Part shown: one piece after another, positions 3,055 through 24,931 of the stretch
Layout: each line of letters begins with the position of its first letter
How positions within the stretch are numbered: position 1 is the first letter of the stretch
Virus record (IMG/VR): IMGVR_UViG_3300025425_000131
Coordinates: 1 to 27,100 of that record
Direction: 5' to 3' (one strand)
Length of the DNA: 27,100 bases
Source of the DNA: a virus
Notes under the pieces: model-generated
Databases searched by the model: none
Told to the model about the DNA's origin: nothing
Seen by the model: the letters and a program-made list of their open reading frames with translations, nothing else
Made by a program: the position numbers and the translations under genes

Positions 3055-3219
3055 ATGAAAAAACCATACTTAACACAGTTTGAAAGACAACTGATAACGA
3101 TAGGAACATTAACAGGTGACTGCGCTATGTTAAGACTTAGATTTAAACAACTCGAAAAGGCTATCATTAAAAGTACACGATGTAGTGCATTTTATAAATT
3201 CTTACATAATGTTATTTAA
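3055..3219 (+). CDS. Short hypothetical protein (54 residues)
   Basis: The ORF starts MKKPYLTQFERQLITIG and ends FYKFLHNVI. It is rich in helix-forming residues, basic, and amphipathic in the middle (MLRLRFKQLEKAIIKS). No family was recognised. Its stop (3217-3219) overlaps the stop of the convergent glycosyltransferase gene (3216-3218), and a promoter-like box lies 14 bases before its start. Small basic helical proteins beside accessory cassettes are often regulators, but nothing here proves that. It fills most of the 276-base gap after terL. Confidence 0.45.
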   Translation: MKKPYLTQFERQLITIGTLTGDCAMLRLRFKQLEKAIIKSTRCSAFYKFLHNVI

Positions 3220-3971
3220 AAAAACTGGTTATCAACCTCAATTAGTTTCCTTCCTTGAAAGTAGGTAATTGAATCACCTAGTTTTGCATTTTGATATTCT
3301 AAAACAAACTGATTTACCTGATCTTTATTCCATCGAACAGAAGCCGCTGCATTTCTGAATTTGTTTTGAATATCAATGCGAATCATTGAGAAGTGGTGCA
3401 TCATTATTTGTTCGTGCGTAAAAACATAGTAAGAAGTGCAAGTGTTTAATTGAATTGCAGGATCAACGCGAACTGGATAGTCATTTCTAGGCTCAATTAT
3501 AGTATTTGCGTGTAATTTGCAGATAAAAGGCATAAAATAATCTTCTATTGGGTCAACTCTCCACGTTACACGCTTGTAATAAGTGTACATAGCGGTAAAT
3601 GTAACGTCTAAATTATTTGTTTTGCAGTGTTTTTTAGCCTTAATGAACTCCTTTTTATTGTAAAAATGATCAGTAGCTGAAAAGAAAAAGTGAGTCGACT
3701 TCAACGATTTAGCGTATTCAATCATTAAATTATGTTTGTTTCGCTCGTTTTGCTTAGTATTTAGCTTTAAATCAGGTGTAAATTCAACTAAAAAAACCTT
3801 TTTACCTTTAATGTTCTTTACAAAAGGCTCTATTTTTTCGCTTAATTCGCCTTTATTAGACAGTTTTTGCCAGCAAATAACCACAAAACCAACATTTTGG
3901 TAAATTTGTTCTATAGATTGGATTAATAATTCTTCACCATTCCAAACAGAATAAAGGGCGGCTAATTTCAT
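3216..3971 (-). CDS. Putative glycosyltransferase (GT-A-like), last gene of glycan cassette
   Basis: This 251-residue protein begins LAALYSVWNGEELLIQSIEQI, the nucleotide-sugar-binding first strand and helix seen in many GT-A-fold glycosyltransferases and phage relatives. A FFFSATDHFY segment at about 96-104 sits where the metal-binding DxD-type motif would be, although the acid pattern is incomplete. A later MHHFSMIRIDI segment (about 190-201) is histidine-rich and may be part of the acceptor or metal site. There is no signal peptide or membrane segment, so it would act in the cytoplasm. Its start overlaps the acyltransferase stop by 4 bases (ATGA), showing translational coupling in the five-gene minus-strand operon. 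Family membership is inferred from fold-like motifs and neighbours and is less certain than for the two upstream glycosyltransferases. Confidence 0.6.
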   Translation of the reverse strand: MKLAALYSVWNGEELLIQSIEQIYQNVGFVVICWQKLSNKGELSEKIEPFVKNIKGKKVFLVEFTPDLKLNTKQNERNKHNLMIEYAKSLKSTHFFFSATDHFYNKKEFIKAKKHCKTNNLDVTFTAMYTYYKRVTWRVDPIEDYFMPFICKLHANTIIEPRNDYPVRVDPAIQLNTCTSYYVFTHEQIMMHHFSMIRIDIQNKFRNAAASVRWNKDQVNQFVLEYQNAKLGDSITYFQGRKLIEVDNQFF

Positions 3972-4483
3972 TTTATTGATTTTGCTGGATTTCCGTAAAC
4001 TATAGAGTTTGCTTCAGTGTTTTTTACCACAGCAGAGCCAAGCCCAATTAAAGTGTTTTCTCCTACCTCAATGCGATTCCTAACCGTAACGCCTAACTTT
4101 ACTTTAGCTCCGTTGTTAATGGTTGCAAATCCTCCAATTATAACGCCCGTGCATATTTCGCAATTATCATTTATTACAACATTGTGCCCAATATGAGAAT
4201 GAGCCATTATAATATTATCAGAACCAATTACTGTTTTATGTTCTTTTTTAAAAGGCCGCTGAATAGTCACCATTTCACTAATCACATTATTGTCTCCAAT
4301 AACTACAAGTCCGCTAAACTCATTTTGTTTTTTTCCTCGTATTTCTCCGTTCGATCCAATTACAGAATAAGCACCTATAGTATTATTCTTACCCATTGTA
4401 ACATTGGGATAAATTATTGCGGTGTCGTGGATTTGGTTTGAATTATCAAATCTTGAGTATTCGTTATAAATATCTTGTTGCAT
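3968..4483 (-). CDS. LpxA-like left-handed beta-helix acyltransferase
   Basis: The 171-residue protein is built almost entirely of hexapeptide repeats (for example IGAYSVIG, VVIGDNNVI, VVINDNCEI, IEVGENTLIG), the signature of the left-handed beta-helix acyl/acetyltransferase fold. H97-I-G-H100 matches the HIAH segment of LpxA, where the second histidine is the general base. The C-terminus ends with the typical YGNPAK turn. The likely role is transfer of an acetyl or acyl group to a sugar or nucleotide-sugar, in the cytoplasm as a trimer. At 171 residues it is shorter than LpxA (about 260) and lacks the C-terminal helical domain, so a small sugar-modifying enzyme is likelier than genuine LpxA. 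Its start overlaps the amidotransferase gene by 20 bases. Confidence 0.85.
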   Translation of the reverse strand: MQQDIYNEYSRFDNSNQIHDTAIIYPNVTMGKNNTIGAYSVIGSNGEIRGKKQNEFSGLVVIGDNNVISEMVTIQRPFKKEHKTVIGSDNIIMAHSHIGHNVVINDNCEICTGVIIGGFATINNGAKVKLGVTVRNRIEVGENTLIGLGSAVVKNTEANSIVYGNPAKSIK

Positions 4484-5786
4484 GATTTACCCATTGTTTA
4501 TTGGTAAAATGAGGATTAGAAAAGCCCCTTTTTTTTCCGTGTTTAACTTTAATGTCTAATTCTGAAATGTCTTTTAAAATTCGTTTGTTATTTAGGTATT
4601 TGTCTGGTAAAGATAGCGCAAAATCTACAAAATCATTATCCAATAAAGGAAAGCGAGTTTCCATAGTGTGAAATCCCGCCATTCTATCTTCGACAACTAA
4701 AACAGCTTTTAAAAATAACCAATCATAGTCCTTGTGTGTAATATCGTGAGTTTTACCTAGCAAATCAGTTCTTTTGATTACCTCGTTTATTGGTTTGTTG
4801 TAACGGTGTGTAAATCCGTTAAAAACTTCATCACCTCCAGCGCCAGAATAAATAACCGTTGAAAATTTAGAGGCAAATTCAGTCAATGCAAAATTAGTGT
4901 AGCAACTACCCGCTTTTAAATCATCCAACGCGTTAAAAACTTTTTCAGAATACTCTTTTTCTAAATCATTATTACAAATAATTGTGTAGTGCTTGCTTTT
5001 TGAGTTTAGCTTTATATTTTCAATTTCGGATAAGTCGTTAAGGTAGTCAACGGAAAAGCAATATTTTGGATTTATATTTTTTGCGATTATTCCGCTGTCT
5101 ATTCCACCGGATAAAAAAACGCAATCGTTTAATTCTGTTTTATTCCGGCTAATTGATAAATCAAAAAGCCTTTTTAATTCAATTTTTGCTGCAGTGTATG
5201 ATATTTCTATTTTATCTGGTTTTGGAAAAGGCAAACAATCGACACGCGTAACGTTTTTGTAAATTGTGTTTTCAGTCATAACACCTAGAGAATAATTCCA
5301 ATCTAACAAAGCATCGTTATCAATTTCAAGATTAACAACTGCTTTAATTCCTTTTAATTCGCTGCAAATAAATGTAGTGCCATTTTCAGTGTATTTGTAT
5401 AGTTGTTTAATTCCGTAGCGGTCAGTAAAATAATGAATGCTCCCGTTGTGATAAATTACAGCAAAAAAACCGTTTAATTCGTTTAGTTTTTCTTCTCCAA
5501 ATTGATCAATAAATTTAGTTAGTAATTCGGTGTCATTGCTTGCTGGTAAATTATATTTTTCCGATAATTCTACCCAGTTTGAAATGTAGCCATTTAGCCA
5601 AAGCATTATACCGTTACAAACAAAAGGTTGATTATATTGATTAGTTGTAATTGGTAGATGTGCGAATGTAACGGTTAAGTTATCGACGGTCGTAGTGCTT
5701 GATTTAATACCGCGATGTTGGATAGCATTACCCATTTTATTTGAATCTTTACGAGTCCCATTAATAACCGCAGCTATTCCGCACAT
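4464..5786 (-). CDS. Asparagine-synthase-type glutamine amidotransferase
   Basis: This protein has a class II glutamine amidotransferase domain followed by an ATP-dependent synthetase domain. The reading frame extends two codons upstream (ATG at 5790-5792), but the third codon is also ATG and gives MCG, placing the catalytic cysteine at residue 2 as the family requires; that start (5786) is chosen. Visible motifs: C2, HRG at 24-26, NG at 65-66, NDTE at 84-87, the pyrophosphate loop SGGIDS at 226-231, and SGAGGDE at 314-320. At 440 residues it is shorter than housekeeping AsnB (about 550). Homologues in O-antigen clusters amidate sugar acids, and the surrounding glycosyltransferases make that role likelier than asparagine synthesis. 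It overlaps the upstream gene by 13 bases. Confidence 0.88.
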   Translation of the reverse strand: MCGIAAVINGTRKDSNKMGNAIQHRGIKSSTTTVDNLTVTFAHLPITTNQYNQPFVCNGIMLWLNGYISNWVELSEKYNLPASNDTELLTKFIDQFGEEKLNELNGFFAVIYHNGSIHYFTDRYGIKQLYKYTENGTTFICSELKGIKAVVNLEIDNDALLDWNYSLGVMTENTIYKNVTRVDCLPFPKPDKIEISYTAAKIELKRLFDLSISRNKTELNDCVFLSGGIDSGIIAKNINPKYCFSVDYLNDLSEIENIKLNSKSKHYTIICNNDLEKEYSEKVFNALDDLKAGSCYTNFALTEFASKFSTVIYSGAGGDEVFNGFTHRYNKPINEVIKRTDLLGKTHDITHKDYDWLFLKAVLVVEDRMAGFHTMETRFPLLDNDFVDFALSLPDKYLNNKRILKDISELDIKVKHGKKRGFSNPHFTNKQWVNHATRYL

Positions 5787-6670
5787 AAGCAATAATTGAA
5801 TTTGTTTGTTATTATTTCCGAATTAATAAATTGAGTATTCGGCCACAGCTCAAAAGGTGTCATATTTGTACTGGATTTAATATCCAAAGCAAATAATTTG
5901 GTTTTTTTGAGAGAAAAAACAGAAATATTAAGGGATGTTGTATCCAAAGTCATCTGCATAGAATTATCTAATACGCGGTTATCTTTATTTTTCCATGGAT
6001 TCCAATTCCAAATATCCATCATTTTGGCATTAATTAATCTTGCCGCTCCTACAGTGTGGCCTTTTCTTCTTTCGTCTTTATATCCACCCCAATATGCCGC
6101 CTTTTTTGTAACAGTGTCGTAAAAGTAAAAATCCGATAAGCCAACAAAATCATAACCCTCTCTTACTCGTTTAATGTATTCCTTCAATAATTTCGGGGTG
6201 ACAATATCATCAGAGCCAACGCAAAGAACATGAGTGCATTGTAATTTTTTAGCTTGCTGGGCGGTGGTATTCATTTTAGATGCTAATGGGTGGTTAGGCG
6301 TTTCAATGTAAAAATATCCGTATTTCTCAACCATTAAACGCGATTTATCACCCTCACTTCCTGCAATTATTGGGACTATTTGAAGCCCGTTAACTAATTT
6401 TAAAGCCTCGATACCTTTTGCGAACATTTCAAAAACTTCTGGACGCTGCCAAACTCCTGTAATTATTGCTAACTTTATTTTTCCAGTAAAAGGAACTAAC
6501 GGATCTTTATTCAGCCCATTTTGGTAATCATCAAATGATTGAATTTGCTTAGTAATTAATAAGTGGTCAATTGTATTGGGAAGAAATGCAGCATCGGTTA
6601 GAATGTCGCCTTTATGGTAAATGATGCGCCTATAACCTTTCAATTCTTTAGCATTAACAATATATCTCAT
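5774..6670 (-). CDS. Glycosyltransferase with an N-terminal domain shared with a head protein
   Basis: The 298-residue protein has two parts. Residues about 63-180 look like a GT-A glycosyltransferase: IKLAIITGVWQRPEVF gives the first strand and helix, IVPIIAGSEGD the second strand, and LCVGSDDIVTP (149-159) contains the DxD-type metal site S153-D154-D155. An aromatic region around 183-197 (YFYDTVTKKAAYWGG) may bind the acceptor. Residues 1-40 are not part of that fold; they align without gaps to the N-terminus of the gpFI-position head protein (24944-25255), sharing GDI, D, F, P and I at fixed spacing. That suggests a small docking or accessory domain. Start and stop overlap the neighbouring genes by 4 and 13 bases, so it is translated within the cassette operon. 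Confidence 0.82.
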   Translation of the reverse strand: MRYIVNAKELKGYRRIIYHKGDILTDAAFLPNTIDHLLITKQIQSFDDYQNGLNKDPLVPFTGKIKLAIITGVWQRPEVFEMFAKGIEALKLVNGLQIVPIIAGSEGDKSRLMVEKYGYFYIETPNHPLASKMNTTAQQAKKLQCTHVLCVGSDDIVTPKLLKEYIKRVREGYDFVGLSDFYFYDTVTKKAAYWGGYKDERRKGHTVGAARLINAKMMDIWNWNPWKNKDNRVLDNSMQMTLDTTSLNISVFSLKKTKLFALDIKSSTNMTPFELWPNTQFINSEIITNKFNYCLCAE

Positions 6671-7314
6671 TTAAAGTAGTTTGTGTAAAATTTGAAGCTT
6701 TCCAAATCCATATTATTAGCAAGCAAATTTATACCGTTTTTGTTGATGTACCTATCCATTCTAGTTTTGTGGTTGCGTCCGCCACAAAGCCCTTCACCGT
6801 GTTTAATTCCTAAACAAATATGATTTTTAGGCTCAAAGGTTTTTTTATTTTGGATTGTTTGCCAAATATGAATATCAGTGTACACTTCATTATCATCACA
6901 CCATTCAAATTTTAGATTTGGCTTAATAACGGTGGACATTGCCGAGCTTCTTAGTTTGTGATTCATTGTAAACCAAGCATTTATTCTTAAATGATAGTAA
7001 ATGGTGTAATTAGTTCCGAAAATATCGGGGCGGTTGTTTAACTCCCAATTAGTAACCATTTCTTCTAGGTAATTGGGGGCGTACCAATCATCATTTTCAA
7101 TGAGTGCTATTAAGTCAAACTTAATAGAGTGGTTGTTAATGAACTCATATCCTTTTCTATATCTTTTCGTTATGTCTGGTTTTTCGTCCGTTGGTTCAAA
7201 GTTGACAATATGAATTAATTCAGGTTTTAAAGTTTGATTTTCTAACATTCTTAAACAGTTCTTTAAGAACTCTGGTCGGTCATTTCTATCGGGAATAATT
7301 ACGGCTACTTTCAT
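6667..7314 (-). CDS. Family 2-like glycosyltransferase, first gene of glycan cassette
   Basis: The open frame extends upstream to 7425, but the family fold begins at MKVAVIIPDRNDRPEFLKNCL, so the ATG at 7312-7314 is taken as the start (215 residues). The extra upstream codons run across the divergent regulatory region. MKVAVIIP is the first strand of a GT-A domain, and LIENDDWYAP (71-80) carries the N74-D75-D76 metal and nucleotide-sugar motif followed by the usual aromatic and proline. The substrate cannot be told. It is the first gene of a minus-strand operon of five overlapping genes; its start codon abuts the 17-bp palindrome at 7314-7330, so initiation and transcription may both be controlled there. 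Its stop overlaps the next start by 4 bases. Confidence 0.85.
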   Translation of the reverse strand: MKVAVIIPDRNDRPEFLKNCLRMLENQTLKPELIHIVNFEPTDEKPDITKRYRKGYEFINNHSIKFDLIALIENDDWYAPNYLEEMVTNWELNNRPDIFGTNYTIYYHLRINAWFTMNHKLRSSAMSTVIKPNLKFEWCDDNEVYTDIHIWQTIQNKKTFEPKNHICLGIKHGEGLCGGRNHKTRMDRYINKNGINLLANNMDLESFKFYTNYFK

Positions 7315-7330
7315 TGTGCAAATTGCATAA
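7314..7330. promoter_or_regulatory. 17-bp near-palindromic operator candidate, copy 1
   Basis: TTGTGCAAATTGCATAA is a dyad with a perfect TGCAA-N-TTGCA core and AT-rich flanks. Its first base is also the last base of the complemented start codon of the minus-strand glycosyltransferase, and it lies 70 bases before the sheath ATG. The same element occurs at 22346-22362 with only the central base changed. An additional half-site-like GGTGCAAAA is at 7344-7352. The likely role is binding a dimeric regulator acting on the divergent transcripts. Confidence 0.65.
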
Positions 7331-7355
7331 ACTAGGTTTAAAAGGTGCAAAATAA

Positions 7356-7367
7356 TATAAAATTTGT
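7356..7367 (+). promoter_or_regulatory. Candidate promoter core for the tail module
   Basis: TATAAAATTTGT lies 25 bases after the palindrome and 32 bases before the sheath ATG. An identical 12-mer stands at exactly the same distance from the second palindrome (22388-22399). It resembles the Bacteroidota -7 box (TAnnTTTG) with one extra base between TA and TTTG. No matching -33 TTTG is obvious, which would fit dependence on an activator. Confidence 0.55.
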
Positions 7368-7399
7368 CGTTCAAAGTAGTAATACTAAAACTTTTTTTC

Positions 7400-8920
7400 A
7401 TGGCAACAAGTACCGCAGTAGGCACAGAGCGAGTTAGTAGAATAGTAGGTTATAAGCTGAAGAAAGGCGACTTTTCTACCAGTTCTCCAAATCTACCCCA
7501 GCGAATAGCAATTTTTGCAGAAGCAAATCACGCAAACCAAGGAACATTAGACACTGACGGTAAAGAGATCACTGATGCTCAAACAGCGGGAAGTCTTTAC
7601 GGTTATGGTTCTCCGATTTACAACATAATGCGAATTTTACGACCTTTAAGCGGTGGTGGAATTGGCGGAATACCAACAATAGTATATGCACAAGCGGCAG
7701 CAGATGGCGCTGCATATAAAGTGTTAGAAGTAACGCCAACAGGTACAGCAACAGCAAACGGAACGCACTTTTTAAAAGTAGCTGGACGAGATTCTGTAGA
7801 TGGTGAAGTTTATGCTTTGAATATTGCTAAAGGCGACACAACAGACGCAATCACACAGAAAATAGAAGACGCAGTTAATAATGTATTAGGTTCACCATTT
7901 ATAGGGACAAGTACTGATTATGAAGCAACCTTAACGAGTAAATGGAAAGGCTTAACAGCTGAAGACTTAAGCGTAACAGTAGACGTTGGAGATAATGCAC
8001 TTGGGTTAACTTATGCAGTTGCAAGCACTTCTACAGGAGCAGGTACACCAAGCGTAACAGCAGCATTAAATCAATTTGGAAACGAATGGGTAACAATTGT
8101 TGTTAATAGTTACGGTACTGTTTCAACGGTTATGGATGCTTTGGAATCTTTTAACGGTATTCCAAATCCAGACACCCCAACAGGAAGATATACAGGAATA
8201 GTAATGAAGCCTTTTATCGCCTTAACTGGTTCGGTTGCTGACAACCCAAGCACAATTACAGATGCAAGGTTAGACGATGTAACTATTGCTATTTGTCCAG
8301 CGCCATTGAGTAAAGGCTTGCCAATGGAAGCAGCAGCAAATGCAGCATTGTTATTTGGTAAAACAGCACAAAACACCCCTCAATCAGATATTGGCGGAGC
8401 AAGTTATTCGGATATGCCGACACCTATCAGCATCGGGTCAATGTCTAGTTATGATAGTCGAGATTCTTTTGTAAAAAAGGGATGCTCAACTGTTGATTTA
8501 GTTTCTGGAAGATACCAAGTTCAAGATTTTGTTACAACTTACCACCCAGTTGGGGAGGTAGTTCCTCAATATCGCTTTTGCAGAAATCTAATGCTAGATT
8601 TCAATGTGAGATATGGTTACTATTTACTTGAATTAATCAACGTGGTTGATCATGTAATTGCAGCTAATGACGACACTGTAAATGCTCAAAATGTTGTAAA
8701 GCCTAAACAATGGTTGCAGGTTGTAAAATCTTACGCAGCTGATTTAGGAGTTCGAGCGTTAGTAGCTGATGTTCCATTTATGCAAGATAGTATAACGGTA
8801 GCAATTAGCACAACTAACCCAGATAGGTTAGAGACATTTTTTAGATATAAAAGAACTGGTATTGCTCGAATAGCTTCTACGGATGCTGAGGCTGGTTTTA
8901 ATTTTGGTACAAACGATTAA
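7400..8920 (+). CDS. Contractile tail sheath protein (Mu gpL-like)
   Basis: The sheath protein polymerises around the tail tube and contracts to drive it through the host envelope. The frame opens at a TTG (7364), but the ATG at 7400 gives the normal start MATSTAVGTERVSRIVGYK and a 506-residue protein, close to Mu gpL (495). Recognisable features are the N-terminal RIAIFAEANH strand, the YGYGSPIYNIMRIL segment, a repetitive Thr/Ala-rich insertion domain (about residues 110-235), and a conserved C-terminal part with VVDHVIAANDD and FRYKRTGIARI. A tube gene follows after 10 bases, the usual sheath-tube order. It is the first gene of the long plus-strand tail operon. Confidence 0.93.
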   Translation: MATSTAVGTERVSRIVGYKLKKGDFSTSSPNLPQRIAIFAEANHANQGTLDTDGKEITDAQTAGSLYGYGSPIYNIMRILRPLSGGGIGGIPTIVYAQAAADGAAYKVLEVTPTGTATANGTHFLKVAGRDSVDGEVYALNIAKGDTTDAITQKIEDAVNNVLGSPFIGTSTDYEATLTSKWKGLTAEDLSVTVDVGDNALGLTYAVASTSTGAGTPSVTAALNQFGNEWVTIVVNSYGTVSTVMDALESFNGIPNPDTPTGRYTGIVMKPFIALTGSVADNPSTITDARLDDVTIAICPAPLSKGLPMEAAANAALLFGKTAQNTPQSDIGGASYSDMPTPISIGSMSSYDSRDSFVKKGCSTVDLVSGRYQVQDFVTTYHPVGEVVPQYRFCRNLMLDFNVRYGYYLLELINVVDHVIAANDDTVNAQNVVKPKQWLQVVKSYAADLGVRALVADVPFMQDSITVAISTTNPDRLETFFRYKRTGIARIASTDAEAGFNFGTND

Positions 8921-9925: not shown

Positions 9926-11880
9926 TGGGCGTTACTTCAACAGTTTCAACAAAATTTACAGCGATAGATAAGTTTTCGGCTAAAGTATCGAAAATGTCAA
10001 GGGCTACACAGACTTTTGCAGCAAAGGCAGAAGTTGGAGTAGCAAGAGCAAATCGTGCGTTTAGAAGCATGACATCTCCTTTACGGTCACTTTCAAGGCA
10101 GTTAGGCCAGCTGGGCTTAGTTCTAGGAATCACAGCAGTAATATCAGTAATTGGAGGCGCTATTAATGTCTTTAAAGACTTTGAACAGGCAAATGCTAAT
10201 CTATCGGCTGTTATGTCGTCGGCAACAGCTCCGCAATTAGCAACGTTACAAGCGGATGCCGAGAGATTAGGCGGAACAACGGCCAAAACAGCAACTGAAG
10301 TAGTTGGATTACAAGAAAGTTTTGCGCGTTTAGGCTTCCCAATGGCCGATATTATAAACATGACTGAAGCAACTATTTCTGGGTCAATTGCTATGCGTGG
10401 AGAATTAGCAGATACGGCTGAGTTGGTTGGAGCTGTTGTTAAAACTTTTGACACATTTGGGTCAATTGATGCTCCAAATATTATTGATAAAATGACTTTA
10501 GCGACTCAAAAAAGTGCTTTAAACTTTGAGAAGTTGCAAAAAGCTTTACCGATAGTCGGTGGAGCTGCTAATGCAGCTGGGATTTCATTTGAATCAACTG
10601 TAGGATTACTTGGAAAGTTATCAGATGCGGGAATAGATGCAAGTAGTTCGGCTACAGCCTTAAGAAATATATTTATTGATAGTAAGGCTAAAGGGCATGG
10701 ATATGAACAAATTTTAGAAAACATACAAAAAAACCAAGATAAACTAACGGCCTCAAACGATGCTTTTGGCAAGAAAACAGCAGTAAGCGCTTCTATTCTG
10801 GCGAATAAATTGCAAGAAGCAAAAAAACTAACAAAAGACCTTAGTAATGAGACATTATTTATGGGAGCTGCTCAAAAAGCAGCAGAGAAACAACAAGCGA
10901 CTTTAGGCGGTGCGCTTACCCTTTTGAGTAGTGGTTATGATGGTTTTATTTTATCATTGGAAAACGGAAACGGTGCTTTTTCAACAACATTAAAAAATAT
11001 TACACAAGTAGCAACAGATATGCTTTCGATGGCTTCTGGTACGGATGTGGCATCAAAAGCAACAACGGAACATGAAAAGAAGGTGGCTAAATATGCAGAA
11101 ATAGCATTGACATTATCTAAAATAATCTTGCTTATTGTGGGTGGAATGATAGCGTTTAAAATAATACTACTAGTAACTTCAGTATTGATGGCAGCATACA
11201 ATATAGGCTTAGGAATAATGGGGGCGTTAAGCGGCACTGCTTCGATTGCAATTGGAGGAAATGCCATCGCGCTTGGAGCCTATAAAATAGCTTTAGGCAT
11301 TTCAACAGCTGCACAATGGTTGTTTAATGCAGCAATGTCGGCTAATCCTATTGTATTAACGATTATTGCAATATTGGCTTTAATTGCAATAATTGCAATA
11401 GTTGTTACTTATTGGGATGATTGGGGCGCGGCCGTGTCATTTATGTTAGGGCCGATTGGATTAGTAATTTCAATTATTCAATCACTTAGAAGAAATTGGG
11501 ATATGATTGGAGATGCCTTTACAAATGGTGGCTTTTTATCAGGCATTTTAGCGATAGGAAAAGCACTACTTGACGCGGTATTAATGCCAATCCAGCAGAT
11601 TTTAGAAATAGCTTCAAAGATTCCAGGAAGTATGGGTGAGTTTGCAGCAGCGGGAGCAGAACAAATAAATACTTTTAGATATGAAATGGGAGTTAATACT
11701 GGTACGGTAGCCGATCCCAAAGGCGCTGAACGTGACGCGTTAACTCAAACTATTAATAAAAGTAATTCAACAAGAAATGAACTATTAATAAAAGACCAAA
11801 CAGGGAGGGCCGAACTGTCTGGAGATGCCGAAAATAATATAGGTATATTTTTACCTTCAAACATGGGCTTTCAATCATAA
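9925..11880 (+). CDS. Tail tape measure protein
   Basis: The 651-residue protein sets tail length and is ejected ahead of the DNA. The first 60 residues are polar and basic, followed by a hydrophobic segment (about 62-80) and the tape-measure core: FKDFEQANANLSAVMSS, then SALNFEKLQKALPIVGGAANAAGISFE and ALRNIF, which match the conserved region of TP901-type tape measures. Strong hydrophobic stretches lie at about 392-435 and 472-497 and could insert into the host membrane on ejection. At the usual ~1.5 Å per residue, the tail would be roughly 100 nm (inference). The start shares one base with the chaperone stop. Confidence 0.93.
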   Translation: MGVTSTVSTKFTAIDKFSAKVSKMSRATQTFAAKAEVGVARANRAFRSMTSPLRSLSRQLGQLGLVLGITAVISVIGGAINVFKDFEQANANLSAVMSSATAPQLATLQADAERLGGTTAKTATEVVGLQESFARLGFPMADIINMTEATISGSIAMRGELADTAELVGAVVKTFDTFGSIDAPNIIDKMTLATQKSALNFEKLQKALPIVGGAANAAGISFESTVGLLGKLSDAGIDASSSATALRNIFIDSKAKGHGYEQILENIQKNQDKLTASNDAFGKKTAVSASILANKLQEAKKLTKDLSNETLFMGAAQKAAEKQQATLGGALTLLSSGYDGFILSLENGNGAFSTTLKNITQVATDMLSMASGTDVASKATTEHEKKVAKYAEIALTLSKIILLIVGGMIAFKIILLVTSVLMAAYNIGLGIMGALSGTASIAIGGNAIALGAYKIALGISTAAQWLFNAAMSANPIVLTIIAILALIAIIAIVVTYWDDWGAAVSFMLGPIGLVISIIQSLRRNWDMIGDAFTNGGFLSGILAIGKALLDAVLMPIQQILEIASKIPGSMGEFAAAGAEQINTFRYEMGVNTGTVADPKGAERDALTQTINKSNSTRNELLIKDQTGRAELSGDAENNIGIFLPSNMGFQS

Positions 11881-19008: not shown

Positions 19009-19314
19009 ATGGCTGAATACGATAGAGCATCATTATACATAATGTCACGCACAACTTTAGCGGCTAAAATAGTTGCTATTGATGCCATTATTTCAGCTTT
19101 AGAATTAAAGGCGTTAGATGCGGCTGCAAATGAAGATATTACAGAGTATTGGCTTGACGATGGGCAGACTAAAATAAAAGAATTATACAGAGGCACGGCT
19201 GGAATTGCTGCTTCAATTTTAGCTTTTGACCAGTTAAAACAAAGGTACGTTAACAAGTACAATGGAAGAGCAAGAAGATTAGTGCCATCAAAAAACATCC
19301 CAAATAGAAGATAA
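19009..19314 (+). CDS. Small head-tail connector candidate (gpW position)
   Basis: The 101-residue protein is mostly helical (TLAAKIVAIDAIISALELKAL, then IKELYRGTAGIAASILAFDQLKQRYVNKYNG) and ends in a basic tail. It lies one base upstream of the portal gene, the place occupied by lambda gpW (68 residues), which plugs the portal after packaging. The paired-helix pattern of about 80 residues with YRG between the helices recalls small gpW-type or related joining proteins, but no motif is decisive. The gene begins 1 base after the spike stop, so it joins the tail operon to the head operon. Confidence 0.5.
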   Translation: MAEYDRASLYIMSRTTLAAKIVAIDAIISALELKALDAAANEDITEYWLDDGQTKIKELYRGTAGIAASILAFDQLKQRYVNKYNGRARRLVPSKNIPNRR

Positions 19315-20909
19315 TGAGTATACTAGATAATTGGAAAGAGTGGACCGGGGTTACTTCAAAAAAAGAAGAAATCAAAGAAGAGCTTAGAGCGGAAATTAAA
19401 GCTGAAGTTCAAAACGTTTCCAGCGGATTTGGATATACCGGCGGATGGACATTTAGCTTTGACGGTGAAAAGAATCTAGGCGAAATGGGGGAGCCTAAGC
19501 ACTATGTTTTGGAACATCAAAGGCTCAGAACTAGATCATGGCAATCGTACCTAGAGAATGAAATAACTCAAACTATTATAGGGAGATTTACCACTTGGGT
19601 AATTGGAGCGGGGTTAAAATTGCAAGCAGAACCAAATGTGAAATTTTTAAAGCAGGAAAAAATAAACCTAGATTTTAATAATTTTTCCGAGTCAATTGAA
19701 GAGCGGTGGAAAGTTTACGCAAATAGTAAAATTGGAGATTATCGAGGCCAAAGCACGCTAAATAAAGTAATGAATACTGCATTTAAAAACGCATTGTTAG
19801 GTGGTGATGTTTTGGTTGTTTTGCGTTATGTAAATAAAAACCTGACAGTTGAATTAATTGATGGGGCATATTTAGGCACTCCACGACAACACAAAGGGAA
19901 AAACAAAATAATTAACGGAGTTGAAATTGATAAAACTGGCAACCATATTGCCTATCATATTAAAACTAAAAGTTTTGAAACCGAAAGAATAGTTGCATAC
20001 GGTGCAAAATCTAAACGTAGAATGGCCTATTTAATATACGGTCAAGAATACCGTATGGATGATTTTAGAGGCATTCCAATTATATCTACAGTATTAGAAA
20101 CATTATCCAAATTAGATAGGTATAAAGAGGCAATGGTTAGCGGTGCAGAATCACGAGCTAAAATAGCCTATTCAATTGAACACGGCGTTACAAGTACAGG
20201 TGAAGATCCTTTTGCAGATAGAATTGCCACGGCTTTTAATCCAACTTCAAAAGATGATTTACCTATAACAATAGATGGAAAGGAATTGGCAGACCAGACA
20301 ACTGTTAGCGTTGGAAATACTGCGGTAAATATGCCAAATGACTCAAAGCTAATAATGCACGATTCAAAACAAGAATTAACATTCGAAGAATTTTACAAAG
20401 TTAATTTCGATTTAGTTTGTGCAGCTATTCAAATCCCGCCAAACGTTGCGAAATCTAAATATGATGATAATTTCTCAGCAAGTAGAGCGGCGTTAAAAGA
20501 TTGGGAGCACACGCTGAATGTTGAGCGTAAAAAGTTTTCCGATCAATTTATTCAGCCTATTTATGATCTGTTTTTAGAGATTCAAATATTGACAAATAAA
20601 ATACAAGCACAAGGATATTTAACAGCGTTGCAGAATAAGGATGAAATGATTTTAAGCGCATACCGTCAAAGTAGATTTGTAGGAGCAACAGTGCCACATA
20701 TTGACCCGCTGAAAGAGGTAAATGCTGAGCGAGCTAAATTAGGAGCTCTAGGTGGTAATATACCATTAACAACTGTGGAACGCGCTACTGAAGCTTTAAA
20801 TTCTGGAGATAGTAATTCTAATATGCAAAAATTTGCTGAGGAATTTACAGAATCTAAAACTTTAAAATTGGTTGATGAGCCAGTAGCACCAATTACAGTA
20901 AAAGAATAG
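19314..20909 (+). CDS. Portal protein (lambda gpB-like)
   Basis: The 531-residue portal forms the dodecameric ring at one capsid vertex through which DNA enters and leaves. Length matches lambda gpB (533). Characteristic parts are the N-terminal YVLEHQRLRTRSW segment, a conserved WVIGAGLKLQ strand, GGDVLVVLRYV (about 162-172), the EYRMDDFRGIPIISTVLETLSKLDRYKEA region (about 243-272), and the C-terminal AAIQIPPNVAKSKYDDNFSASRAALKDWEHTLNVERK (about 370-406), the family's best-known stretch. A strong bidirectional terminator follows after 15 bases and separates it from the second accessory cassette. In lambda the protease gene would come next. Confidence 0.93.
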   Translation: MSILDNWKEWTGVTSKKEEIKEELRAEIKAEVQNVSSGFGYTGGWTFSFDGEKNLGEMGEPKHYVLEHQRLRTRSWQSYLENEITQTIIGRFTTWVIGAGLKLQAEPNVKFLKQEKINLDFNNFSESIEERWKVYANSKIGDYRGQSTLNKVMNTAFKNALLGGDVLVVLRYVNKNLTVELIDGAYLGTPRQHKGKNKIINGVEIDKTGNHIAYHIKTKSFETERIVAYGAKSKRRMAYLIYGQEYRMDDFRGIPIISTVLETLSKLDRYKEAMVSGAESRAKIAYSIEHGVTSTGEDPFADRIATAFNPTSKDDLPITIDGKELADQTTVSVGNTAVNMPNDSKLIMHDSKQELTFEEFYKVNFDLVCAAIQIPPNVAKSKYDDNFSASRAALKDWEHTLNVERKKFSDQFIQPIYDLFLEIQILTNKIQAQGYLTALQNKDEMILSAYRQSRFVGATVPHIDPLKEVNAERAKLGALGGNIPLTTVERATEALNSGDSNSNMQKFAEEFTESKTLKLVDEPVAPITVKE

Positions 20910-20924
20910 ATTGGAGGTTGGATA

Positions 20925-20962
20925 AAAAAAGCCCTTCTAATTAATTTTAGAAGGGCTTTTTT
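20925..20962. terminator. Strong bidirectional terminator
   Basis: A perfect 16-bp stem (20925-20940 with 20947-20962) closes a 6-base TTAATT loop, with A-runs on the left arm and T-runs on the right. It would stop the plus-strand portal transcript and the minus-strand accessory cassette alike. Confidence 0.92.
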
Positions 20963-20990: not shown

Positions 20991-21179
20991 CTACTTAGGT
21001 TGTCTAAATTTAAGCCTTACCCTTTCATTATTCCTATATGTTAATGATGTTAATTCCCATCCGTTGCGTATTTCTGCATTTATGATGCTTAACATACTAA
21101 TATGCACATAATCAATTTCTTTCCTTTTGTATTTCATTTCCGTATTTTTAAAAGATTTACAACAATGTTTAAAATGCAT
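20991..21179 (-). CDS. Small GWEL-motif protein, possibly DUF4177-like
   Basis: The frame from ATG 21179 gives 62 residues; a second ATG at 21137 gives a 48-residue protein beginning MKYKRKEIDYVHISML, which may be the better start. The segment IINAEIRNGWELTSLTYRNNERVRLKFRQP has the shape of DUF4177-type small proteins: a helix ending in an N-x-x-x-x-G-W-E-L turn, then two strands ending in F-R-Q-P. Function of that family is unknown. It is the last gene before the bidirectional terminator on the minus strand, and a hairpin (21183-21205) lies just upstream of the longer start. Confidence 0.5.
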   Translation of the reverse strand: MHFKHCCKSFKNTEMKYKRKEIDYVHISMLSIINAEIRNGWELTSLTYRNNERVRLKFRQPK

Positions 21180-21205: not shown

Positions 21206-21244
21206 AGCAACAATAAAAAAGTGCATAACACGTAATAAAATAAA

Positions 21245-21330
21245 TAAGGTGGGCGGCACAACGCAGACTTTCAACTGTAAGCCTATTTTAATTGTGTTTA
21301 AAGTTGCAACTCTCACCTAAACCCACCTTA
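21245..21330. other. Element closed by a 9-bp inverted repeat; possible structured RNA
   Basis: TAAGGTGGG (21245-21253) pairs perfectly with CCCACCTTA (21322-21330), enclosing 68 bases that include a perfect AGTTGCAACT palindrome (21301-21310 region), a small CAG/CTG hairpin (about 21263-21276) and an unpaired CACCTAAA stretch. The size and closing stem recall a tRNA, but neither strand gives proper D, anticodon and T arms. It lies in the gap between the GWEL-motif gene and the T9SS gene. A small non-coding RNA or recombination remnant is possible. Confidence 0.35.
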
Positions 21331-21349
21331 CTACTTATATTACCATTAG

Positions 21350-22009
21350 TTAATACAGTACTAACCTATTCCAATTATTATTTACCTTTAAGAAGTAAAC
21401 GCCGCTGTCAAATTCCGAAAGGTTTATTTCTGTTTTCCCTTTGATAATAATTTCAATCAAAACATTTCCGCTTAAATCAATCAATGAAATATTAGCTGTT
21501 GAATAATCCAACGTTAAAAAATTATTCACTGGATTAGGAAAAAAAGAACCAACTACTTTATTTTCATTAATTGAGTTTGGCCTATCAATTGGCTTTACAA
21601 TTTCGGTAGTATCTTCTGGCATTTTAAAACCACCAACAAACCAAAAATTTGATCTAAGTAATTTATTAAGACTTTCACATTTATCATCAAAACCGATAGA
21701 GGTAACATTTAATAAACTATCGTTGAATTTAAAATTCAAGGTATTCCGCACAAATGGCGTTGAGTCTTTGCAGCCGTGGCTACTTGTTTCTAAGCTCATA
21801 ATTGTATCAAAGCCATTCCATGTGATAGAGTGATGGCCTCTATATACTAATTCGGAATCATTGCTAATTGTTACTGTATCGGCTTTGAAAATCATCGTGT
21901 AATTAATGGCGGTGTCTGTTTTATTCGCTCCATACCATTTTAAAGTTTTCAGGTTTATTTGTCCAAATCCTAAAATTGGCATTAAAAGTAAAAGTGTAAT
22001 TGTTTTCAT
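21350..22009 (-). CDS. Exported protein with T9SS type A sorting domain
   Basis: The 219-residue protein has a signal peptide (MKTITLLLLMPILGFGQ, residues 1-17) and a C-terminal domain (about 152-219) with all marks of the T9SS (Por) type A signal: FFPNPVNNFLTLDYS, ISLIDLSGNVL, then TEINLSEFDSGVYFLKVNNN and the ending NRLVLY. It should cross the inner membrane by Sec and be moved to the cell surface or medium by the host's type IX system. The middle part (18-150) is beta-rich with two cysteines (C80, C111) and matches no enzyme family that could be recognised. Such a signal in a phage gene is unusual and points to a lysogenic-conversion (moron) function. The ATG overlaps the stop of the upstream 56-residue ORF (ATGA), so the two are co-translated. 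Confidence 0.88.
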   Translation of the reverse strand: MKTITLLLLMPILGFGQINLKTLKWYGANKTDTAINYTMIFKADTVTISNDSELVYRGHHSITWNGFDTIMSLETSSHGCKDSTPFVRNTLNFKFNDSLLNVTSIGFDDKCESLNKLLRSNFWFVGGFKMPEDTTEIVKPIDRPNSINENKVVGSFFPNPVNNFLTLDYSTANISLIDLSGNVLIEIIIKGKTEINLSEFDSGVYFLKVNNNWNRLVLY

Positions 22010-22176
22010 TGTTCGTTGTTTTTAGTTATTAAGTCTTTGTGCTTTTCTTCTATTCGTCGTAAAATTATCTTTGTCACGTTGCCCAATGTTTTATCGGTAT
22101 TAAAAGACATTACTCTTATGTTTTCGTGAAGTAATTCAGACACTTCAATTAGAATTGAATCAGGCTTTCTTTTCAT
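22006..22176 (-). CDS. Small ribbon-helix-helix-like protein (56 residues)
   Basis: The ORF, shorter than usual gene-finding limits, reads MKRKPDSILIEVSELLHEN and ends TKNNEQ. A strand (SILIEVS), a helix (ELLHENIRVMSFNT), a turn with Gly-Asn (LGN) and a second helix (VTKIILRRIEEKHKD) give the order of a ribbon-helix-helix DNA-binding fold. Its stop overlaps the T9SS gene's ATG by 4 bases and its start overlaps the upstream 60-residue gene by 17, so it lies inside a coupled operon. Function is not shown; autoregulation or an antitoxin-like role is possible, though no toxin gene is seen. Confidence 0.62.
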   Translation of the reverse strand: MKRKPDSILIEVSELLHENIRVMSFNTDKTLGNVTKIILRRIEEKHKDLITKNNEQ

Positions 22177-22342
22177 AATCGGTAGTTACTCTTTTGTCAA
22201 ATTCTTTAATCACATTTTTGCCCTCAACTTTTACAAGTGAATTTAATCCAACCTCCAGAGTATTGGTTATTGTTTCTAGGTTTTTGATTAGTTGGGGAGA
22301 TAATCCGCTAACTAAAATTTGTTTCCTTTTCTTACTATTCAT
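22160..22342 (-). CDS. Small ribbon-helix-helix-like regulator candidate (60 residues)
   Basis: The protein begins MNSKKRKQILVSGLSPQLIKNLETI. A basic N-terminus, a strand (QILVSGLS), a first helix (PQLIKNLETITNTLEV), a Gly turn and a second helix (SLVKVEGKNVIKEF) follow the ribbon-helix-helix plan of small dimeric repressors. It is the first gene of the minus-strand cassette and begins 4 bases from the 17-bp palindrome at 22346-22362, the natural arrangement for autoregulation. The plus-strand frame overlapping it (22194-22412) has no other support. DNA binding is inferred from fold pattern and position. The second copy of the palindrome beside the glycan cassette is a possible further target. 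Confidence 0.6.
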   Translation of the reverse strand: MNSKKRKQILVSGLSPQLIKNLETITNTLEVGLNSLVKVEGKNVIKEFDKRVTTDYEKKA

Positions 22343-22345
22343 TCA

Positions 22346-22362
22346 TTGTGCAATTTGCATAA
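22346..22362. promoter_or_regulatory. 17-bp near-palindromic operator candidate, copy 2
   Basis: TTGTGCAATTTGCATAA differs from copy 1 (7314-7330) only at the central base, which the dyad leaves free. It stands between the divergent minus-strand regulator gene (start 22342) and the protease gene (22405). A consensus-like minus-strand -7 box at 22367-22374 would place that transcript's start at or inside the palindrome, the expected position for a repressor site, while for the plus strand it lies upstream of the promoter core, as for an activator. Confidence 0.67.
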
Positions 22363-22366
22363 AAGC

Positions 22367-22374
22367 CAAATATA
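22367..22374 (-). promoter_or_regulatory. Minus-strand -7 box of Bacteroidota type
   Basis: The minus strand reads TATATTTG, an exact match to the Bacteroidota -7 consensus TAnnTTTG. No clear -33 TTTG is visible. Transcription from it would run into the regulator and T9SS genes, with the start point falling in the palindrome. Confidence 0.5.
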
Positions 22375-22387
22375 TAAATATTAAATG

Positions 22388-22399
22388 TATAAAATTTGT
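22388..22399 (+). promoter_or_regulatory. Candidate promoter core for the capsid module
   Basis: TATAAAATTTGT is identical to the sequence at 7356-7367 and stands the same 25 bases from its palindrome. It precedes the protease ATG by only 5 bases, so the transcript would have a very short or no leader if the box is used as a -7 element; the exact start point is uncertain. Confidence 0.5.
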
Positions 22400-22404
22400 T
22401 GCTA

Positions 22405-23391
22405 ATGAGTGAAATTTACCTATACACAGATTTTTACAGATTTACAGCTGAAGAATTTGCGCGTAATTTAGATAAAACTAAAGGCGAGGCAACGGTTGTT
22501 AGGTTGTATTCTAGCGGTGGAAATCCACAAGCAGGATATACAATGTTAGCTAAAATGGCTGAACATGGTAAAGTAACTTTAAAAGTTGATGGCTACGCAG
22601 ATAGTATGGCGGCTTTTATGTTGTGTTATGCTAACGGTAGCGAATGTTTAGACATATCTACTTTTACTTTTCATCGCGCAGCCTATCCTGAATATGTTGA
22701 AACAGATGCAGCAATGTTAACAGAACTTGCAAACATTAACGCTTTTTTACGTAAAGGTTTTGAAAACAAAATAGACGTTGAGAAGTTTGAAGAATCAACA
22801 GGAACATCAGTTGATCAAATGTTTTCAATGGATGGCCGTATAGATGTCACTTTGTCGGCTGAACAAGCAAAAGAAGTCGGGCTAATTGAAAGAATTAATC
22901 CTGTAACCGATGTAATGCTTCAAGCAATTAGCAAAAACCAAGCAATTGAAGCGTCAACACTTGCCAAAAGAGTTGAAATAAAAGCTGAAGCTCCAAAAGC
23001 TAAAGCACCCGAAACAGAAAAAAAGCAAATCATTAGTAAATTAAATAAGATGGATATTAATAAACTACGCTCTGAAAATTTAGAGTTGTTTAACGAAGTC
23101 GTTGCATTAGGAGTAACGCAAGAGCGCGATAGAGTTGGCTCTTTCATGGCGTTTGCTGACGTTGATATTGAAGCAGTGACAAAAGGCATTGTAGAAGGTG
23201 GAGAACTAAGCAGAACGTCAATGGCTGAGTTCACACGAAAAGCAATGAGTGCGGAAACGGTTAAGAAAATCGAAGATGACGCTGCCCCAGAAATCGTGAA
23301 GGACGAAATCAAAGCTGAAGACGAAGGAAAAGATAAAATCGAAGCCTTTTTAGCTGAGTCAAGAAAAACTTATTTAAAAACTGAAAAATAA
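22405..23391 (+). CDS. Head maturation protease (ClpP/S14 type) fused to scaffold
   Basis: The ATG at 22405 is preferred over an upstream TTG at 22396. The 328-residue protein starts with a ClpP-like serine protease domain (about 1-170): oxyanion-type SSGGNP (36-41), the nucleophile in GYADSMAAF (S67), the histidine in TFHRAAYP (H90), and the third acid probably D147 in GRIDVTLSAEQAKEVGL. A charged linker (about 185-210) leads to a helical scaffold domain (SENLELFNEVVALGVTQERDRVG, then a Glu/Lys-rich tail). The role is to shape the prohead and then cleave scaffold and itself, like lambda gpC/Nu3. An in-frame ATG at 23050 could make scaffold alone. It follows the divergent regulatory region and its stop overlaps the next ATG. 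Confidence 0.88.
   Translation: MSEIYLYTDFYRFTAEEFARNLDKTKGEATVVRLYSSGGNPQAGYTMLAKMAEHGKVTLKVDGYADSMAAFMLCYANGSECLDISTFTFHRAAYPEYVETDAAMLTELANINAFLRKGFENKIDVEKFEESTGTSVDQMFSMDGRIDVTLSAEQAKEVGLIERINPVTDVMLQAISKNQAIEASTLAKRVEIKAEAPKAKAPETEKKQIISKLNKMDINKLRSENLELFNEVVALGVTQERDRVGSFMAFADVDIEAVTKGIVEGGELSRTSMAEFTRKAMSAETVKKIEDDAAPEIVKDEIKAEDEGKDKIEAFLAESRKTYLKTEK
23050..23391 (+). CDS. Possible internally started scaffold (Nu3-like)
   Basis: An in-frame ATG at 23050 follows the A-rich leader TTAAATAAG and would give a 113-residue protein starting MDINKLRSENLEL, exactly at the border between the linker and the helical scaffold domain. Lambda makes its Nu3 scaffold from such an internal start in gene C. 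The location and domain boundary are seen; use of this start is inferred. Confidence 0.45.
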   Translation: MDINKLRSENLELFNEVVALGVTQERDRVGSFMAFADVDIEAVTKGIVEGGELSRTSMAEFTRKAMSAETVKKIEDDAAPEIVKDEIKAEDEGKDKIEAFLAESRKTYLKTEK

Positions 23392-24892: not shown

Positions 24893-24898
24893 TTTAAT

Positions 24899-24931
24899 AA
24901 GGGGGTTTATTAATTAAACCCCCTTTTTTTT
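24899..24931 (+). terminator. Rho-independent terminator after major capsid gene
   Basis: GGGGGTTTA (24901-24909) pairs with TAAACCCCC (24915-24923) around a TTAAT-type loop; two more A-T pairs extend the stem, and eight T bases follow (24924-24931). It lies 6 bases after the capsid stop and would lower expression of the head completion genes. Confidence 0.88.

Follow-up and report, generated by a model that had tools for sequence, protein, structure and literature searches.

A Phage Gene for a Predicted Type IX Secretion Cargo Protein in an Antisense Unit between Portal and Protease Genes

Results

A Phage-Encoded Cargo Protein with Two Sorting Signals

The viral record IMGVR_UViG_3300025425_000131 of IMG/VR (complete, 27,100 bases, class linear), referred to below over its whole length as the window, encodes a small protein with an N-terminal signal-peptide-like segment and a C-terminal sorting domain (CTD) of the type IX secretion system (T9SS). 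The profile matches of this domain, its modeled fold, the overlap of the gene with a phage-conserved neighbor and the structural genes on both sides support its assignment as a phage gene for a T9SS cargo protein. Export by the T9SS is strongly predicted and would put the protein on the cell surface or outside the cell; a part in superinfection exclusion is the least certain element of our reading. The direct results behind this reading are the gene, the domain, the overlap, a terminator, the conservation of the regulator slot, and the absence of the cargo from relatives. The cargo gene and its parts are as follows.

21350–22009, minus strand: T9SS type A cargo gene, an open reading frame of 219 amino acids (PF18962, 42.9 bits; TIGR04183, 42.6 bits)
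21959–22009, minus strand: signal-peptide-like N-terminus MKTITLLLLMPILGFGQ, residues 1–17 (sequence and hydropathy)
21560–21958, minus strand: body, residues 18–150, with two cysteines and without a Pfam match or detectable relatives
21353–21559, minus strand: T9SS type A C-terminal sorting domain, residues 151–219 (profiles, alignment, model, and fold matches)

The reading frame agrees exactly with the original prediction in the list of open reading frames and in translation, and it is intact, with 219 codons and both sorting signals; its GC content is 31%, compared with 34–40% in the core genes. The N-terminus MKTITLLLLMPILGFGQ combines a lysine with a leucine-rich core that ends in ...FGQ, with a hydropathy peak of 2.76 per residue over 10 residues. 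The signal peptide proposed there fits a predicted Sec signal peptide in hydropathy and layout, the two features from which it is predicted, and the signal peptides of viral T9SS proteins, such as MKKLLLILLLLPIFSFGQ in the IMG/VR contig L106, share both.

Both T9SS domain profiles exceeded their curated cut-offs at the C-terminus: PF18962 of Pfam (E=5.9e-11, residues 157–213, profile positions 2–66 of 75; cut-off 27 bits) and TIGR04183 of NCBIfam (E=4.5e-11, residues 157–212, profile positions 2–61 of 72; cut-off 23 bits). Within the 27.1-kb record, PF18962 matched the cargo only. The domain shows the motifs FPNP (157–160), a DLSG loop (178–181), GVY (203–205), and a terminal strand RLVLY (215–219), and the alignment shows that the invariant residues P158, N159, P160, G181, and Y205 are all retained. 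G181, within IDLSGN, is the glycine of loop L-beta3-beta4, a column invariant across 18 CTDs; in RgpB this glycine is essential (PMC11285876). The motif C-t of CTDs is a terminal strand with a conserved lysine (PMC11285876). The cargo ends in NRLVLY, where R replaces the conserved K, and the preceding loop is about four residues short. Twenty-four CTDs from metagenome-assembled genomes (MAGs) of putative hosts have a comparable last strand, mostly with K ahead of hydrophobic residues, and judged by this comparison the end of the cargo CTD follows the normal pattern except for R in place of K.

An AlphaFold2 model of the CTD, computed from an alignment with 17 other viral CTDs, has a core pLDDT >90 and confidently predicts an Ig-like beta-sandwich resembling solved T9SS signals. 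The top twenty Foldseek matches to this model include the CTDs of RgpB (7pq4) and NucA (8glk), mirolase (8qb1), and RemA (8gl6), the translocon-bound NucA CTD with a TM of 0.67 to the model; the E-values for T9SS CTDs are modest (0.007–0.03), and other Ig-like folds rank alongside. Sequence matches in the PDB include the CTD substrate 8glj and the lipase 7pzj, whose PNP-type C-terminal region is the part aligned. The domain had been described as a full type A signal: the domain itself is borne out by the profiles, the fold, and the PNP, G181, and GxY positions, but "full" overstates it, given the short last hairpin and the R for K.

The body comprises about 133 residues (about 15 kDa), is rich in N, T, and S, and is still without a family, as it was in the original prediction, after profile, plasmid, phage, and Bacteroidota genome searches. 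It has no match in Pfam, including the enzyme, carbohydrate-binding, and adhesion families, and no relatives in plasmids or phages. A first draw of 395 Bacteroidota genomes gave no match at E<=0.001, and in later draws, with the limit at E<=0.05, the matches amounted to 19 of 395 and to 19 of 396, equal to the chance expectation; the best-covering match in these draws is not a coherent homologue. The whole protein has no relatives in IMG/VR, and in INPHARED it gave one weak match, to the CTD only. The structure prediction suggested for residues 18–150 was run as a single-sequence AlphaFold2 model of the full protein, in which the body has a pLDDT <50; its fold is not usable and was left out of the fold search.

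An Antisense Unit at the Portal–Protease Junction

The cargo gene is flanked by structural genes and stands in a short antisense unit with the following features.

19314–20909, plus strand: portal protein gene, flank (PF05136, E=8e-40; phrog_21, E=1e-57)
20925–20962, no strand assigned: bidirectional intrinsic terminator AAAAAAGCCCTTCTAA-N6-TTAGAAGGGCTTTTTT at the boundary of portal gene and antisense unit (inverted repeat, folding)
20991–21179, minus strand: small open reading frame of 62 amino acids, possible last gene of the antisense unit (sub-threshold match to DUF7584 only)
21232–21343, minus strand: hairpin 3' of the cargo gene with arms AAGGTGGG / CCCACCTT (fold z about -3; inverted repeat I2)
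22006–22176, minus strand: RHH2, 56 amino acids, overlapping the cargo start by ATGA (translation)
22160–22342, minus strand: RHH1, ribbon-helix-helix-like, 60 amino acids, first gene of the antisense unit, overlapping RHH2 (profile match)
22343–22404, minus strand: divergent intergenic region with a Bacteroidota-type -7 box TATATTTG (22367–22374, minus strand; sequence)
22405–23391, plus strand: head maturation protease gene, ClpP type, flank (PF00574, phrog_2976)

A gene for major capsid protein E (PF03864, E=8e-18) follows downstream of the protease gene. The placement of the cargo among phage structural genes therefore holds with respect to the portal, protease, and capsid genes around it, but its strand is opposite to theirs. 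RHH1 alone has no family match, and it is found at E=2e-8 by a profile built from 12 two-domain antisense proteins of relatives; within the RHH group, the CopG-like repressor family phrog_7325 is matched by 6 of 15 proteins, and the best match to Pfam RHH_9 is 5e-8. Through this group profile, RHH1 can be assigned by homology to the ribbon-helix-helix (CopG/Arc) families. A toxin–antitoxin reading of the RHH genes with the cargo is disfavored because the cargo bears two export signals.

The terminator is a perfect 16-bp inverted repeat with A and T runs on its flanks; its folding energy is -25.5 kcal/mol on one strand and -21.9 kcal/mol on the other, with z about -7 for both. A search against Rfam returned sub-threshold matches only, mostly at this hairpin, and PADLOC detected nothing. 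At the other end of the unit, the TATATTTG box is placed some 25 nt ahead of RHH1; since the window has no more boxes of this type than chance would give, it is weak evidence for a promoter. A near-perfect 14-bp inverted repeat at 24896–24928, right after the major capsid gene, is a further possible terminator. From the gene order, the overlaps, and the two-way terminator, the antisense unit appears to be self-contained and to converge with the structural operon, and its expression may be timed apart from that of the structural genes.

Related Phages and the Empty Site

A first scan for portals yielded two relatives, L002 and L003; both have RHH1 and RHH2 at the equivalent junction and lack the cargo, with RHH2 homologues of 41% identity (E=7e-6); judged by gene content, this junction is a natural empty site. 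An initial portal scan of genome contigs gave no match. Portal and protease are both present in 79 related loci; an RHH-like gene stands at the junction in 59 of these and is antisense in every case, which is a striking conservation. These genes have one or two domains (e.g., L014:7992–8315, L042:11488–11829, and L048:11593–11883, all minus strand) and usually end about 3 nt away from the stop of the portal gene; in the window, the added cargo widens this distance to 1,257 nt. The PF18962 domain was found in none of 83 related viral records, many of which are fragments, and the cargo is therefore an addition. Its absence from the site in relatives is that of an add-on of the moron type, as far as sequence comparison goes.

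Other genes also use this junction. Sense-strand genes occupy it instead in L011, L019, L021, L018, and L004, some of them lysis-like by inspection, such as small membrane proteins and, in L004, an M15-type peptidase; the junction is thus a general cargo site, since sense-strand genes can replace the antisense gene. In L082, an extra antisense gene of 103 amino acids (11489–11800, minus strand) lies 3' of the RHH gene, in the position of the T9SS cargo, and has no evident signal peptide and no Pfam match. A tyrosine integrase was found in 3 of 22 longer relatives, including L007 and L008, the closest by portal identity.

Between terminase and tail sheath, the window has another antisense block (3216–7425, minus strand). 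Two of its genes resemble GT2-type glycosyltransferases, one a hexapeptide acyltransferase, and one an asparagine synthase; a further gene is unassigned. The GT2b gene has homologues in L087, L029, L046, and L047 that are likewise antisense. The glycosyltransferase-type genes of this block are consistent with an alteration of surface sugars.

Host Range and Dependence on Type IX Secretion

The window phage is best explained as a phage of Bacteroidota with a contractile tail and as a distant relative of Ficleduovirus (FCV-1, V156, and others), with which it shares contractile-tail modules and a portal of 41% identity. FCV-1 differs in that it has no T9SS domain and its junction is occupied by small genes in a sense block, together with an M15 peptidase. 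The named portal relatives infect Flavobacterium and Cellulophaga. All four Bacteroidota MAGs with binned relatives of the phage encode many CTD proteins (from 22 to at least 150 each), so that T9SS-positive hosts are likely for the phage group; it should be noted that binning with a MAG is no proof of a host. Resistance of F. columnare to phage V156, which is a portal relative of the window phage, maps to the T9SS and gliding genes sprA, gldM, gldK, and gldN (PMC9233685). This related phage thus depends on surface features made by the T9SS, and a phage-made T9SS substrate would therefore be well placed to alter that surface.

Discussion

Possible Roles of the Exported Protein

We propose, tentatively and with slightly less than even confidence, that the cargo is an accessory ("moron"-type) gene in a separate antisense unit whose exported body alters the host surface against other phages. 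RHH1, RHH2, and the cargo, perhaps with the 62-amino-acid open reading frame, would form a unit with its own start region between portal and protease, with a CopG/Arc-like regulator inside it and the two-way terminator insulating it from the structural operon. The protein would cross the inner membrane by Sec, and the host T9SS translocon would recognize its CTD and export it; the CTD would probably be removed, and the 15-kDa body either anchored on the cell or released. Sec export, CTD recognition, and release or surface anchoring follow from membership in the T9SS family (PMC11285876). The body would then most likely lower the adsorption of further phages, by receptor masking or superinfection exclusion. 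Nothing in the body favors receptor masking over another surface role, because its sequence is an orphan and its model has a pLDDT <50. Points against this proposal are the single known copy of the cargo, the short last hairpin of the CTD, and the R for K.

The exported body might instead be an enzyme, binding protein, or adhesin that aids the infected cell or phage spread, through polymer breakdown, attachment, or slime and mucus. Other phage T9SS cargoes are of this kind, namely an endoglucanase, a GH39 enzyme, and a PA14 protein (PMC7468147), and the viral T9SS protein of L106 carries a MAM domain; but a body of about 133 residues in which Pfam recognizes no such family makes this a rather unlikely role. 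A bolder form of our own proposal, in which the body represents a new small surface protein family that is delivered by the T9SS under a phage RHH regulator, remodels the T9SS-dependent surface that the phage group needs, and so blocks rival phages, is unlikely as a whole.

The gene could also be a recently captured host gene that is carried as a passenger, expressed or not, and has no function for the phage. Its one occurrence in the clade, its low GC content, and the lack of a homologue showing selection all suit such an origin, whereas the intact frame with both sorting signals, the overlapping start, the organized unit with its terminator, and the absence of a close bacterial donor from about 395 genomes per draw argue against it, and we regard it as quite unlikely. 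We consider it improbable that a small, abundant T9SS substrate serves to jam or occupy the SprA/PorV translocon and so to reduce the display of T9SS-dependent receptors. The very small size of the cargo and its atypical terminal hairpin would suit such a role, as would the resistance to a related phage that follows T9SS loss (PMC9233685); the CTD, however, retains its loop glycine and terminal strand as in exportable cargoes, and hosts hold tens to more than 100 CTD proteins per genome. Competition for the translocon would need high expression because host CTD proteins are so numerous.

T9SS CTD genes are overwhelmingly bacterial, which is what speaks for bacterial DNA misjoined to a phage contig; this hardly credible source is contradicted by flanking phage genes arranged as in L002, by the overlap of the cargo with RHH2, whose homologues lie at the L002/L003 junction, and by the phage-conserved RHH1 upstream. 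Phages use Ig-like domains on their capsids, and the Ig-like DUF3244 fold ranks beside T9SS CTDs in Foldseek, but a place for the protein in the virion or periplasm, with a CTD-like domain that is only an Ig-like fold and no export signal, is very improbable in view of profile scores well over the cut-offs, the PNP and D-x-x-G motifs, the predicted N-terminal signal peptide, and a position antisense to the structural operon.

Our preferred reading, an exported protein that alters the surface against other phages, suggests that the virus would redecorate the surface of its Bacteroidota host. In the literature searched, we found no experiments on a phage-encoded T9SS substrate. Whether phages rewrite the host surface via type IX secretion is directly testable in Flavobacterium johnsoniae, because the cargo is small, its sorting signals are intact, the regulator unit is compact, and a relative is blocked by host T9SS mutations.

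Comparison with Known Type IX Cargoes

Host T9SS type A cargoes such as RgpB, NucA, RemA, and mirolase have the same Ig-like CTD with a D-x-x-G loop and a basic terminal strand, but these are chromosomal genes with known bodies, whereas the body of the phage cargo is without assignment.

The survey for similar cargoes in phages that the original prediction called for returned T9SS domains in viral records of INPHARED, IMG/VR, and BFVD. Searches of INPHARED with consensus CTDs found type A domains in seven records, including genomes of 634 and 735 kb, and type B domains in three, including a 642-kb genome; BFVD contains further phage proteins annotated as T9SS CTD. These huge or uncultured phages (LR745206, LR756501/2/3; BFVD A0A6J5L910 and A0A6J5M064) resemble the window phage in carrying a CTD in a phage genome, but they are 634–735 kb or unplaced, and their comparison with the window cargo concerns the CTD alone. 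For IMG/VR, a consensus probe was used in a restricted pattern scan because the first CTD alignment was too diverse for scanning; it gave at least 39 contigs with a T9SS CTD, a lower bound within which 5 of the 39 have a phrog_2 terminase and several have no PHROG match. Among the IMG/VR contigs, L124–L127 and L131–L132 encode a cargo of about 530 amino acids with a signal peptide and a CTD, as here, but with an unrelated body and in an unrelated phage group; that of L124 has a major head protein gene (E=6e-68) within 5 kb, and the record has a terminase. L106, L111, L123, L094, and similar contigs encode large T9SS type A proteins (854–1118 amino acids) whose genes are co-stranded with a run of small genes after open reading frames of 454–965 and about 360 amino acids, an arrangement resembling a structural module. 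The scanned neighbors in L106 and L123 have no PHROG match, so these contigs may belong to an undescribed virus group.

Gut phage contigs with BACON domains likewise have T9SS sorting domains beside head genes; they differ in their BACON tandem repeats, and the accessible part of that report describes no regulator unit (de Jonge et al. 2019, PMC6949934). Cryophage also encodes T9SS type A cargo, for which superinfection exclusion was suggested (Bellas et al. 2020, PMC7468147); both the phage-encoded cargo and the exclusion idea are thus previously published. Cryophage is, like the window phage, a Bacteroidota phage with T9SS type A sorting domains and variable accessory genes, but at 76 kb it encodes three cargoes with recognizable domains (endoglucanase, GH39, and PA14) (PMC7468147), whereas the window phage has a contractile tail and a single 219-amino-acid protein with an orphan body in its portal–protease antisense unit. 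Particular to the window phage are this orphan body and the RHH-linked, terminator-bounded site in which its gene is found.
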